A stretch of DNA of 64,000 bases, taken from positions 62,001 to 126,000 of the forward strand of contig NZ_LVEG02000004.1 in assembly GCF_001614315.2 (NCBI RefSeq). Reading direction: 5' to 3'. The position numbers and the translations under genes were made by a program. Source of the stretch: Halofilum ochraceum (lineage in GTDB: Bacteria; Pseudomonadota; Gammaproteobacteria; XJ16; Halofilaceae). Below, in pieces: positions 32,326 to 37,178 of the stretch. Position 1 is the stretch's first letter; each line of letters opens with the position of its first letter. The notes beneath the pieces are model-generated. The model ran no database searches and had not been told where the DNA came from. It saw only the letters and a program-made list of their open reading frames with translations.

Positions 32326-33924
32326 TCAGGGCGGGTCGATATCGCCGTCGATGGTATCCGTCTCGATGACGGCACCGGCGTTGTCTACACGCTTCTGTGC
32401 CGTCGGCAGGCGCACCTCGAACTCGACGCCGGTGATGTCGAGTGGCATGAATTCGAGCCGGTGGGCGTTGCGCTTCGGGCGATAGCGCAGACGCCAGTGC
32501 GGGCGCTCGGGGTGGGCCGGGTCGTGGAAATCCTGGGTGCCGCGGGCGCTGAATTCGTCGAGCACGACGCTTCCCGTGCCGTCATCGGACTCGATCACGA
32601 TGTGGGTCACGGGGGACGGATTGGTCCACTCGCGGCTGCGCACGGTGTCGCCTTCGGCGCTGCGGCAGCGGGTTCGCCCGTTCTCGTTGACGGTCTCCAC
32701 CGATTCGATGAGCTCCTTACCGTTCAGCAGGCTCATCCGGAGCGTGTATCGATAACGCGGATGGTCGATGTTGTGGACCGTGATCCGCCCCTCGTAACCC
32801 TTCACGATCTCGTTGACGAAATAGAGCCCGAGGCCGCGGCCATGATGCTCGCGCTTGCGGCGGGTGCTGTAACCGAGCTGGAACAGGTTGGGGAGGTCCT
32901 CTTCCCGCACGTGCGGCCCGCGGTTATAGACCCGCAGACAGACATCGCCGTCTTCTTCCGACAGCGTCAGCGCGATCGGCGCGAACTGCGAACTGTAGCC
33001 GCGCTTGGCGGCGTAGAACTGGGCATTGCGCAGCAGGTTCTCCAGCAGGAGGACGAGGTGATTCTCCTTGCCCAGCAGTTCCCCGCAGCGCTCGAGGCGG
33101 GCATGGATGCGGCCATCATCCAGGCTGTAGGGCGTATCCGGGTCGAGTGCCGGCAACGGTTCCTCGCGCACCATCGCCAGTGCGCGCCAGGCGGCGCGCT
33201 GTGGCGGGTAGGCGGGCTCGTCCGGCAGGGTGCGCGCCTGATCGCTGTCGAGCAGGCGCTGGCAGTACTGCTCCTCGCATTCGCACATCAGGTTGCCGAT
33301 ATGCAGCGTCAGGTTCTCGGCGGTGGAGAGATCAAGCAGATCCCAGAGGTAGTGCAGGGCATCGAGTGCGGCCTGCGGGTCGGTCTCCGCGGTGCCGGTG
33401 GCCGTGTCTGATCCTGACGCCGGGTCCGTGGCGGTGAGTTGGCGCTGGAGAGCGGTTTGCACCTTGTCGAAGCTGATGACGCCGTTGTGGCGGACCTCGG
33501 CGGCGATGCCCTTGAAGTGCAGGAACTTCTCGTCGTACTCGATGTATTCGAGCAGCTTGTCGCTGATGAACAGCTTGAGTTTATCGGCGTGCTCGGAATA
33601 CGTGTGTGCCTTCAGCTGGAGCTGCTTGTTGCGCGCCCACAGATCGTCGATCTGCGCCTGGCGCTGTTGCAGTTCAGTACGCTGCGTTTCGTGTCGGCGG
33701 CGGACCCGGCGCACGTCGAGGCCGGCGAGCAGCACCAGGACGGCCACCACGCCATAGTGCGCCTCCCGGCCCTGCAGGAAATCGGGGAGCGCATAGAACG
33801 ACGCCAGCCGTGGATCGGTCGCGATGAGGACAAACGCGATGGCCGCCAGTCCCAGCAACAGGGCGAACCATGGGAAGGCGACCGGATCGCCGCGCCGCTG
33901 ACGCTTGTCGCCTTCGTCGCTCAT
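32326..33924 (-). CDS. Atypical membrane sensor histidine kinase with C-terminal extension
   Basis: 532 aa from ATG 33922-33924, which overlaps the regulator stop (ATGA) and has a CGGAG ribosome site; the frame extends to 33999 but without support. Two membrane helices (about 17-36 and 57-68) enclose a periplasmic loop, followed by a coiled coil (75-130). No standard H-box (HELRTPL) is seen; His146 in AAEVRHNGVISFDKV is the best phospho-acceptor candidate. A cysteine cluster CECEEQYC lies at 214-221. The ATP-binding domain has N-box ENLLRNA (295-301), an Asn-type G1 box YNRGP (333-337) instead of DxGxG, and G2 HGRGLGLYFV (361-370). About 150 residues follow it, rich in beta-like segments and unlike standard kinases. 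Confidence 0.8.
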   Translation of the reverse strand: MSDEGDKRQRRGDPVAFPWFALLLGLAAIAFVLIATDPRLASFYALPDFLQGREAHYGVVAVLVLLAGLDVRRVRRRHETQRTELQQRQAQIDDLWARNKQLQLKAHTYSEHADKLKLFISDKLLEYIEYDEKFLHFKGIAAEVRHNGVISFDKVQTALQRQLTATDPASGSDTATGTAETDPQAALDALHYLWDLLDLSTAENLTLHIGNLMCECEEQYCQRLLDSDQARTLPDEPAYPPQRAAWRALAMVREEPLPALDPDTPYSLDDGRIHARLERCGELLGKENHLVLLLENLLRNAQFYAAKRGYSSQFAPIALTLSEEDGDVCLRVYNRGPHVREEDLPNLFQLGYSTRRKREHHGRGLGLYFVNEIVKGYEGRITVHNIDHPRYRYTLRMSLLNGKELIESVETVNENGRTRCRSAEGDTVRSREWTNPSPVTHIVIESDDGTGSVVLDEFSARGTQDFHDPAHPERPHWRLRYRPKRNAHRLEFMPLDITGVEFEVRLPTAQKRVDNAGAVIETDTIDGDIDPP

Positions 33925-34727
33925 GTGTCGCTCCGGACCGGTTTCCAGCAGTACGCCATCTCGTCGCCGAAGGCGACGATGCCCTGATCGGTCTTGCACA
34001 GCGCCGTGAAGCGACCCTCGCCGGGCATCGCCTGGTCGAATGCGCGGCGCAGGATGCGCACGTGCTGGCGGTAGCCGCCCCAGGTGAAGCGGTCGGGGTC
34101 GGCGTCGAGCAGTTCGGCCATGCGGTTGGTGGATACCGGGCGGGGTGACGATTCCACCAGGTAGCGCAGGATCTTCCGTGGCGTCGGCGCCAGCGGGCGG
34201 CGGCTGTCGGCCGGGTTCATGAGCTTCGTGCCGCGCCAGTAGATCGTCCAGCTCGCGGTGTCGATGGTCAGGTCACCGCTTTTGAGCAGGTCGTCGCTGT
34301 CCGTCTGCCCGGCGGCGCCCAGCCGGGCCTGGCGCAGGGTGGCGCGGATGCGCCAGCAGAGCACGGATTCGATGTTGCGTTGATGCTTGGCAATGAAGTC
34401 CTGCGCCCAGGTGGACTCGAGCGCCTCCTGCTCGACATCGGTGCCGCTGTATTCCGACAGGTACAGGATGGGCACGTCCGGCCATTTGCGCTGCAGGGCG
34501 CGCGATACCGAGAACCCGGCGCCGGTGTCGCCCTTCATGTTGGCGTCGAGCAGCGCGAGGTCGGGTCGCTGGGACTCGTTGGCCGTGCGCACGAACTGGC
34601 AGGCGGCCTCGGCGAGCCGGAATACCTGCAGCCGCGTCGGCTCGTCGTCGAGTTCCGCCGCCTCCAGGACCGGGCGGAAACGATCGACCCAGTGCGACTG
34701 GTCTTCCACCCACATGATCGTGGCCAT
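33921..34727 (-). CDS. Response regulator with C-terminal winged-helix domain
   Basis: 268 aa from the ATG at 34725-34727 (MATIMWVEDQ). The receiver keeps its key residues: acidic pair Glu8/Asp9, phospho-acceptor Asp61 in LLDANMKG, Ser91 in LYLSEYS and Lys114 in FIAKH. The DNA-binding part (about 165-255) resembles the OmpR winged helix but is divergent (LAPTPRKILRYLVESSPRPVSTNRMAELL, then WGGYRQHVRILRRAF). It overlaps the kinase gene by four bases, so the two are a two-component pair. It diverges across about 160 bp from the coiled-coil membrane gene at 34887, which is its most obvious target. Confidence 0.85.
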   Translation of the reverse strand: MATIMWVEDQSHWVDRFRPVLEAAELDDEPTRLQVFRLAEAACQFVRTANESQRPDLALLDANMKGDTGAGFSVSRALQRKWPDVPILYLSEYSGTDVEQEALESTWAQDFIAKHQRNIESVLCWRIRATLRQARLGAAGQTDSDDLLKSGDLTIDTASWTIYWRGTKLMNPADSRRPLAPTPRKILRYLVESSPRPVSTNRMAELLDADPDRFTWGGYRQHVRILRRAFDQAMPGEGRFTALCKTDQGIVAFGDEMAYCWKPVRSDT

Positions 34728-34886
34728 CGCGCGCCCCGATTCCCCGTCGCCAACCGCGCTACAGCCTACCACGGCGGTTGCTCACCCGATTTTCACCAGC
34801 GCTTCCGAGAATCGGTCCCACGCGGCGGTTGCCGCCCGGTGGTCGGGCGGCGGCCGCGGCATCGACACGCAACGGGAGACAATGTC

Positions 34887-36452
34887 ATGTGGGATATCCT
34901 CACCATCTGGAGCGCATCACCCGCGCTGTCCGTGGCGATCTGGCTGGCGATCGCCATGGTCGTTCTCTACTTCGGGCGCCCGCACGCCCATCAACTGCTG
35001 CAGAGCACGGGGCGTGCGATCGATCACGCGCTGCGGCTGGCGGCGACCAGCGTGCGCCAGCTCGAGCAGCGGGTCTCGGCCCGCAACCGCGACGTCCTCG
35101 TCGCCCAGGGTCGCGAGGCGACCGAGCAGGCCATCGAGCGCGAGTTTTCCCGGGTCAAGTCGATCGTCGATCGCGAACTCGGGCAGTACCCGGCGCTGCA
35201 TCGGGAGCTCGAAGAGACGCTGGAGAAGGTCGAGGCGGATTACCAGGCCTCGACCCATAACGCGCCGTTGCCGCCCGAATGGTCGGAAGTGGTGCAGACC
35301 ATTTCGGCTTTGCCGAACTCGGGCGATCCGGCCATCACGAAGATCCTCAACGAGATCAAGAGCTCGGTCGAGAGCGCGCAGAAGGAAACGCTGAAGGCGT
35401 ATCAGAAGAACGCCCAGGAGCGCCACAAGATCCTGAGCGGCATGGCCTCGGACTGGCGCGGCCTGAAGCAGAACATGGAGAAGGTGCAGAAGACGATCAG
35501 CGGTCTCGACGGCCGCGCGGAGTCGATCGACCGGCACATGGCGAACTACGAAGCCATGCGCAACAACGACGACAAGGCGCTGCATTCGCTGACCGCGTCA
35601 TCGCTGACGCAGTTCTTCATCGCCGCGCTGATCCTGGCCGTCTCGGCCTTCGGTGGTCTGATCAATTTCCATCTGATCGCGCTGCCGATGTCGGAGATGG
35701 TCAGTGGCGGCGCCTGGTTCGCCGGCATGCCGGTGTCCGACATCGCGGCGCTCGTGATCATCATGGTCGAGATCTCCATGGGGATCTTCCTGCTGGAGGC
35801 ACTGGGCATCACCAGCCTGTTCCCGATGATCGGGCGGATGGATGACCGCATGCGCAAGGGCATGGGCATCGCGGCACTGGTGATCCTCGTGATCTTCGCG
35901 AGCATCGAGGCCTCACTGGCGTATCTGCGCGATCTGCTCATTCTCGATCAGCAGCAGCTGACGCAGTCGCTCGCCGGTGCGCAGATCGCGGACGCGCAGT
36001 TCCGCTGGATTCCGTCCGTCGCGCAGATGATGCTCGGCTTCATCCTGCCGTTCGCGCTGGCCTTCGTCGGCATCCCGCTGGAGTCGTTCATCCATTCGCT
36101 GCGGACCGTGCTCGGGCTGGTCGCGCTCGGCCTGCTGCGCACGCTGCGCGTGGTTCTGCGCATCGTGGGTGGCAGCGCGCGGCACCTGAGCCGGATGCTG
36201 ATCAGCCTGTACGACCTGTTCGTCATGCTGCCGCTGGCGATCGAGCGGATGGCGGTCCGCGGCGGGGCTTCACTCGGCGAGGCCGCGGCCAATCGGCGGC
36301 ACGGCGAGGGCGACGAGAGGGAAGCCTCGGAAGCGTCCATCGATGAAGGTGGCGCCAAAAGCGGTACGAAACAGCGCGGCCGCAAGCGCCGCGGGAGCCG
36401 TGAGCGGCAGGAGCCGGATCTCGGCGTCGAACCGACCCCGGCGGAGGGCTGA
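34887..36452 (+). CDS. Polytopic membrane protein with long N-terminal coiled coil
   Basis: 521 aa from ATG 34887, with GGGAG eight bases upstream; the open frame runs back to 34380 but that part is antisense to the regulator. One helix at about 13-29, a charged coiled-coil domain (40-235), then membrane helices at about 241-266, 284-312, 325-347, 375-398 and 405-428, and probably 437-455. The last 65 residues are basic, acidic and disordered (RRHGEGDEREASEAS, KRGRKRRGSRERQEP-like). I recognise no named family. It is three bases from the VWA lipoprotein gene and diverges from the two-component pair, so it may be a signal-responsive scaffold or channel-like protein; that is inference. Confidence 0.75.
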   Translation: MWDILTIWSASPALSVAIWLAIAMVVLYFGRPHAHQLLQSTGRAIDHALRLAATSVRQLEQRVSARNRDVLVAQGREATEQAIEREFSRVKSIVDRELGQYPALHRELEETLEKVEADYQASTHNAPLPPEWSEVVQTISALPNSGDPAITKILNEIKSSVESAQKETLKAYQKNAQERHKILSGMASDWRGLKQNMEKVQKTISGLDGRAESIDRHMANYEAMRNNDDKALHSLTASSLTQFFIAALILAVSAFGGLINFHLIALPMSEMVSGGAWFAGMPVSDIAALVIIMVEISMGIFLLEALGITSLFPMIGRMDDRMRKGMGIAALVILVIFASIEASLAYLRDLLILDQQQLTQSLAGAQIADAQFRWIPSVAQMMLGFILPFALAFVGIPLESFIHSLRTVLGLVALGLLRTLRVVLRIVGGSARHLSRMLISLYDLFVMLPLAIERMAVRGGASLGEAAANRRHGEGDEREASEASIDEGGAKSGTKQRGRKRRGSRERQEPDLGVEPTPAEG

Positions 36453-36455
36453 ACC

Positions 36456-37178
36456 ATGACCTATCTCAATCCATTCCATCGCAACCCGCGCGTTACGAAT
36501 GCGCCGGAGCGCCACCCGCGCCGTGCGCGGGCGGCGACGGCCGGACTGCTGACCCTGGTGGCGGTGTTGCTGTCGGGCTGCGACAGCGGACCCCACAATC
36601 GTGCGGCGGTCGTTCTGATCGATATCTCGGGGGAGTACGCGACCGAGATCGAGAAGGCCCGCCGGGTGACGAGCCTGCTGCTGGGACGTCTCGATCCGGG
36701 CGACTCCATCGCCGTGGCGTTCATCGACAACACGAGCTACAGCGACCGCAATTTCATCGCGCGGGTCGATTTCGATCATCGGCCCAGTGTGGCCAACGAC
36801 CAGAAACGCGCCGTCCGCAAGGAGCTTGATGCCTTTCTCGATCGCTTCAGCGTGCCCAGCGCGCACAGCGATCTCACGGGCGGCATCCTGCTGGCGCGGG
36901 ATTTCCTGGAGCGGACCCGAGCGGCGGACAAGCAGATCTTCCTGCTGTCGGATCTGGACGAGGATCTGAAGCCGGAACTCGACCGAAGCGGGCCACTGGA
37001 GCTGGACGGTATCGAGGTCGTCGCGGTCAATGTCATCCGGCGCGATCGCGACAACATCGATCCGGCCCACTACCGCCAGCGCGTGAGCCACTGGCAGCAG
37101 CGTGTGCAGGACGATGGTGGCCGGTGGGACATGGTCAACGAGATCGATCGGCTGCAGCGTCTGGTGGCACAACGATAA
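36456..37178 (+). CDS. VWA-fold lipoprotein
   Basis: 240 aa. The N-terminal segment AGLLTLVAVLLSGC gives a lipobox with Cys42, so the protein is probably anchored in the envelope. The mature part reads like a von Willebrand factor A domain: VVLIDISGEY with MIDAS Asp56 and Ser58 (the usual second Ser is Glu60), AVAFIDNTSYS, a Thr at 141 (HSDLTGGILLARDFL), and FLLSDLDED with Asp166. A partial MIDAS suggests altered metal-dependent binding. It starts three bases after the coiled-coil membrane protein gene and ends near a perfect hairpin, which makes a two-gene operon. Partners and ligand are unknown. Confidence 0.75.
   Translation: MTYLNPFHRNPRVTNAPERHPRRARAATAGLLTLVAVLLSGCDSGPHNRAAVVLIDISGEYATEIEKARRVTSLLLGRLDPGDSIAVAFIDNTSYSDRNFIARVDFDHRPSVANDQKRAVRKELDAFLDRFSVPSAHSDLTGGILLARDFLERTRAADKQIFLLSDLDEDLKPELDRSGPLELDGIEVVAVNVIRRDRDNIDPAHYRQRVSHWQQRVQDDGGRWDMVNEIDRLQRLVAQR

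Follow-up and report, generated by a model that had tools for sequence, protein, structure and literature searches.

We analyzed a compact locus in the window (the whole stretch of Halofilum ochraceum DNA under study, 64,000 nucleotides), where a two-component pair on one strand faces a membrane protein gene, here called MEM, and a VWA-domain lipoprotein gene on the other. The genes and control elements are as follows.

32326..33924, minus strand: sensor histidine kinase, 532 aa (ORF reading, Pfam, AF2 model)
33921..34727, minus strand: OmpR/PhoB-type response regulator, 268 aa (Pfam domains, conserved residues)
34782..34797, plus strand: predicted regulator-binding site, 11-bp direct repeat TCACCCGATTTTCACC (site alignment, window shuffling)
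34807..34812, plus strand: -10-like hexamer GAGAAT (read off aligned sites)
34887..36452, plus strand: MEM membrane protein, 521 aa, without a Pfam family
36456..37178, plus strand: VWA-domain lipoprotein, 240 aa (lipobox, MIDAS-like residues, weak VWA_2 match)

An initial annotation of this DNA had described a divergent four-gene module, and reading of the ORFs bears out its layout: the regulator and kinase genes overlap by 4 bp (33921-33924), the gap of about 160 bp between the divergent pairs measures 159 bp from regulator start to MEM start (34728-34886), and the MEM stop and VWA start are separated by 3 bp. The interval it gave for the module, 33921-37178, needs correction, since it omits the kinase, whose gene extends to 32326.

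The regulator has the features of an OmpR/PhoB response regulator, with an acidic pair (E8/D9), a phospho-Asp (D61), S91 and K114 in the receiver domain and a winged helix at the C terminus; Pfam returned Response_reg (E 6.3e-9) and a weak Trans_reg_C match (0.009) under its cut-off. In the kinase, Pfam detected HATPase_c (E 1.2e-15), and the ATP-binding boxes N300, N334-x-G336 and G362/G364 are invariant in 54/54 relatives, so that the Asn-type G1 box (N334-x-G336) first read from the window protein proves to be universal among these kinases. The proposed lack of a standard H-box holds in that there is no Pfam HisKA-type match, but H146, within an EVRHNG motif, is invariant in all 54 proteins. 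A cluster of Cys residues had also been singled out; it is not a family trait, with Cys at positions 214, 216 and 221 in only 22, 33 and 6 of the 54.

The AF2 model of the kinase (pLDDT 83.8) begins with a TM helix (19-36) and one helix (53-165) that leaves the membrane and extends to the end of the first DHp helix; a second DHp pair and the HATPase domain follow, and the C-terminal region is beta-rich. Its fold matches are HK853, CpxA and ThkA (Z about 16-17). H146 lies in the model 19 residues before the end of helix 53-165, a placement that we take to correspond to the phospho-His site in the HK853 structure, and we predict that H146 is the phospho-accepting His; H136 is invariant to the same degree. 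Hydropathy profiles place TM1 above threshold in 52/54 relatives and TM2 in 53/54, with a median gap of 19 residues between the two peaks. Having two N-terminal TM helices with fewer than about 25 extracytoplasmic residues, the kinase looks to be of the intramembrane-sensing type, with almost no periplasmic domain. The C-terminal extension noted earlier does exist, as a beta-rich region of ~110 residues modeled with high confidence. Within it, residues 404-507 end in GVEFEVRLP, which resembles the last HATPase domain strand, and the region could be an insertion into the HATPase domain or a partial repeat as opposed to a simple extension. We note that one marine MAG has an intact regulator, operator and MEM-VWA but a kinase broken into two frames (L163:4251-5907).

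MEM is a member of an uncharacterised membrane protein family. As the initial annotation had it, this is a polytopic protein with a long N-terminal coiled coil: hydropathy and the model (pLDDT 82) agree on TM1, a coiled coil at about 31-235 and four further TM helices (five in total), with two short conserved periplasmic loops and a C-terminal part of basic helices plus a disordered tail. By the positive-inside rule, we infer that the coiled coil is cytoplasmic. Pfam, NCBIfam and PADLOC searches returned nothing for MEM, including no significant Pfam family, and comparison of its profile with solved structures gave chance matches only (GPCR, coiled coils). Fold searches with the model (Foldseek, VIA-align) likewise recovered nothing beyond generic coiled coils (Z <=10.9; best Foldseek E 0.06), and because this Z lies within the expectation for helical bundles, we leave the fold unassigned and do not count it as new.

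The VWA protein carries a lipobox (LSGC, Cys42) and MIDAS-like residues (D56-x-S58-x-E60, T141 and D166), with Glu in place of Thr at position 60, and its domain match is weak (VWA_2, E 4.7e-4, 21.2 bits against a cut-off of 27). The MIDAS motif had been called partial, which is accurate for the window protein (DISGE) and its nearest kin but not for the family, whose consensus reads DTSGT and in which the T and D motifs are conserved. The family as a whole retains the MIDAS D, S, T and D, and the window clade has Asp, Glu or Asn for the second Ser/Thr. The lipobox Cys is followed by Asp in the window protein and mostly by Gly or Ser among its relatives; under the E. coli rule, Gly or Ser at this position directs a lipoprotein to the outer membrane and Asp to the inner membrane.

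We surveyed 369 gammaproteobacterial genomes and found MEM in 52 and VWA in 46, with MEM present in 45 of the latter 46. In the seven genomes with MEM but no VWA, the MEM homologues are all among the weakest and most distant. The conserved loop acids E270, E295 and E341 are mostly missing from these seven, a loss that is only suggestive because they are also the most distant. Where MEM and VWA co-occur, they are adjacent, on the same strand and in the order MEM-VWA. These comparisons show MEM-VWA to be an obligate-looking, ancient gene pair that forms the core of the module. We also observed one pair, L095 (G091:C7), in which the VWA MIDAS is lost (DAEGV) together with MEM E295 and E341.

The regulator is much rarer, being found (E up to 1e-20) in only 12/369 class genomes, and in 12/12 of these both regulator and kinase lie within about 7 kb of MEM-VWA; co-occurrence in the same genome, leaving the linkage aside, already gives a hypergeometric p of about 2e-11. 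A wider scan of 84,980 species genomes yielded 527 confirmed MEM matches. Among the best 80 of these 527 loci, most have the full four-gene set, usually divergent, sometimes tandem and sometimes with a few genes between the pairs. The hosts, which include Ectothiorhodospiraceae, Thioalkalivibrio, Halospina, Marinobacter, Vreelandella, Hahella, Saccharospirillum, Marinimicrobium, Thalassolituus, Aliikangiella and Simiduia, are mostly marine and salt-loving and belong to many gammaproteobacterial orders. In the MEM tree, all rows with the two-component pair fall into one clade (SH-aLRT 100) of 55 positive rows, 2 negative rows and 3 cut by contig ends (55/57 scorable), and two state changes suffice to explain the presence of the pair. 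The phylogeny shows that the two-component pair is a later addition to the core, which it joined essentially once, in one MEM clade, and to which it has stayed linked. Rare co-occurrence of the two pairs, which would have counted against the module idea of the initial annotation, is not what we see: the four genes stay together in 12/12 class genomes and 55/57 clade rows.

No fifth gene is conserved beside the four-gene set, and the other flanking genes vary. At four loci without the two-component pair (L071, L075, L078 and L080), MEM-VWA lies beside a small set of conserved genes and fliA, the gene for the flagellar sigma factor; this adjacency is confined to a few loci, all without the pair, and we found no constant neighbours that would hint at function. 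MEM homologues are also common in one non-gammaproteobacterial family of the same phylum (f200; G405 and G411-type genomes), where some are split into two frames. Closer to the window genome, neither of the two congeners examined (G001 and G002) has MEM, VWA or the regulator. In G001 the module is missing after cydDC (CydC 85% identical). G002 retains, at another locus (L024:6033-6584, contig C79), a 183-aa N-terminally truncated frame that covers only the beta-rich C-terminal region of the kinase, with 44% identity over 116 residues, and this remnant suggests that the module was probably lost.

The initial annotation had recommended looking for a shared operator dyad between 34728 and 34886. 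A conserved control site is indeed present, but it is a direct repeat and not a dyad. The repeat, with the consensus TCAC-N7-TCAC (TCACnGATTTTTCACC), is the sole conserved block of the shared intergenic regions. It is always oriented along the MEM strand and stands at a fixed distance from a -10-like hexamer (family form GATACT/CAATCT), with the repeat end about 10 bp upstream, so that it occupies the -35 position of the MEM promoter and a separate -35 is not expected. In the window, the 20-mer at 34781-34800 has 0 chance matches expected upon shuffling. In the Pho box, direct repeats with an 11-bp period precede the -10 by about 10 bp, and there is no separate -35; the module operator has the same repeat geometry and differs in its half-site (TCAC) and its single target promoter.

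A script located the operator in 55/57 divergent intergenic regions, and reading of the sequences placed it upstream of wrongly chosen starts in the two it missed (L184 and L155); over-long ORF starts masked operators at L117, L125, L155 and L184, all located by such reading, and L097 has the operator too. With leave-one-out scoring at a threshold of at least 12 bits, the operator passes at 59/64 divergent and 11/12 non-divergent loci linked to the two-component pair, hence at 70/76 overall, against 3/59 loci without the pair (Fisher p about 4e-27), two of these three (L116 and L135) being cut by a contig end. Since the block goes with the regulator gene whatever the arrangement of the genes, the simplest reading is that it is the regulator's own predicted binding site.

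We then searched 36 whole genomes with a tight pattern. The 30 module genomes gave 33 matches, of which 30 are at the MEM promoter and three are stray, and the matches in G021 and G288 likewise lie between MEM and the regulator. Allowing <=3 mismatches to the 20-mer, the window genome contains this site only. Given that the operator accompanies the regulator and that there is about one site per genome, we regard the regulator as dedicated to a single target, which it probably activates. Within the reach of the consensus, it serves one promoter; the test used the tight consensus, which could miss weak sites. The earlier suggestion that the two-component pair controls MEM-VWA is therefore supported, on the strength of a predicted operator that is conserved in all gene arrangements with the regulator and has about one copy in each genome.

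The four genes constitute a real and conserved module that is apparently undescribed. The initial annotation had recognized no described system in this gene set, and neither did we: Pfam, NCBIfam and PADLOC give only generic two-component and VWA matches, the PADLOC anti-phage defence models match the four proteins only weakly and at chance level, and no paper on such a four-gene set turned up in the literature searched. The LiaFSR system of Bacillus, which makes LiaIH, is an envelope-stress module (PMC3543457) and resembles the present one in that a two-component pair adjoins a small output operon, which is membrane-associated and acts at the envelope. It differs in being Gram-positive, in gene layout, in having no VWA lipoprotein and in the families of LiaR, LiaF, LiaI and LiaH; LiaF or LiaIH families are not among the Pfam and NCBIfam matches of the four proteins. 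An envelope lipoprotein acts with a two-component system in RcsF-IgaA-Rcs and in QseG-QseE-QseF (PMC5978795, PMC6075780), the former also involving a polytopic inner-membrane protein. Both differ from the module in their protein families, broad regulons and lack of a VWA domain.

Taken as a whole, the data are probably best explained by a dedicated regulatory module of the four genes, whose single output is MEM-VWA. We hypothesize that the kinase, held in the membrane by its two TM helices, autophosphorylates on H146 and monitors, from within the bilayer, the condition of the membrane or of the MEM-VWA complex. Phosphorylated regulator would then bind the repeat as a head-to-tail dimer, in PhoB/OmpR fashion, and switch on MEM-VWA and little else. 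MEM would be an inner-membrane protein with a large cytoplasmic coiled coil, and the VWA lipoprotein, probably periplasmic, may dock through its MIDAS on the conserved periplasmic loops of MEM; its membrane location and this docking are speculative because the residue after the lipobox Cys differs from that of its relatives. A physical MEM-VWA complex is inferred solely from the strict gene pairing. Our guess, by analogy with LiaFSR and LiaIH, is that the output may be a membrane or envelope protection device made upon envelope disturbance.

Sensing by the kinase through the MEM-VWA complex, which had also been proposed initially, is plausible given its two TM helices and very short loop. A stronger form of this idea, that MEM-VWA is mainly a sensor or feedback arm that holds the kinase off and releases it upon envelope damage, as RcsF/IgaA do for Rcs or QseG for QseE, is the main alternative, though an unlikely one. 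It would account for a kinase almost without a periplasmic domain and for the closed loop in which MEM-VWA is the regulator's predicted only target, and it has precedents (PMC5978795, PMC6075780, PMC12691602). Most MEM-VWA-bearing class genomes nevertheless have no such two-component pair, so MEM-VWA must have an activity of its own, and were sensing its sole role, other regulator-controlled effectors would be expected, of which we saw none.

The direction of control is a further point. A repressor could act at the -35 region too, which the site overlaps, and the regulator might then repress MEM-VWA until a signal lifts the repression. We regard this as improbable: where the repeat lies with respect to the -10 argues for activation, and the fixed -10 distance, single strand orientation and missing separate -35 fit PhoB/OmpR-type activation better.

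The proteobacterial dedicated sortase system (TIGR03784/03785/03787) has a target that carries a VWA domain and many marine hosts, and, like the module, comprises a dedicated two-component pair (PdsS/PdsR) and a VWA protein. The best NCBIfam match of the regulator is TIGR03787 and the kinase also matches TIGR03785, but at 40.8 of 335.7 bits and 32.4 of 612.2 bits, far under the cut-offs. No sortase lies beside the module or in the window genome: TIGR03784 is absent from G000 and from 17/23 module genomes, and elsewhere it is never adjacent, being on another contig or about 137 kb off on the same one (G397). We therefore reject the module as a form of this system, a reading with next to no probability. 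Equally negligible is chance neighbourhood of two unrelated gene pairs, which the spacing of several kb in a few genomes (L052, L053 and L168) might suggest but which the 12/12 linkage, the single clade and an operator that tracks the regulator even in non-divergent arrangements contradict.

Returning to MEM-VWA as the single output of a dedicated module, a more specific version is a long shot: the pair may be a new kind of machine in the envelope, under a private two-component switch. MEM would be a channel or transducer of the inner membrane in which E295 and E341 are buried, and the lipid-anchored VWA protein would gate or assemble it through a MIDAS-E270 contact. The contact would be akin to the MIDAS-based action of the alpha2-delta subunit of calcium channels.

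The module belongs to a familiar class, that of two-component systems dedicated to one envelope output, and is here built around the uncharacterised MEM family. Four hypothetical or generic annotations can thereby be treated as a single testable unit: its promoter is defined, an operator is proposed for it and one target is predicted. The module offers a handle both on the MEM family and on signal reception by a kinase whose His motif is unusual and which lacks a periplasmic domain.
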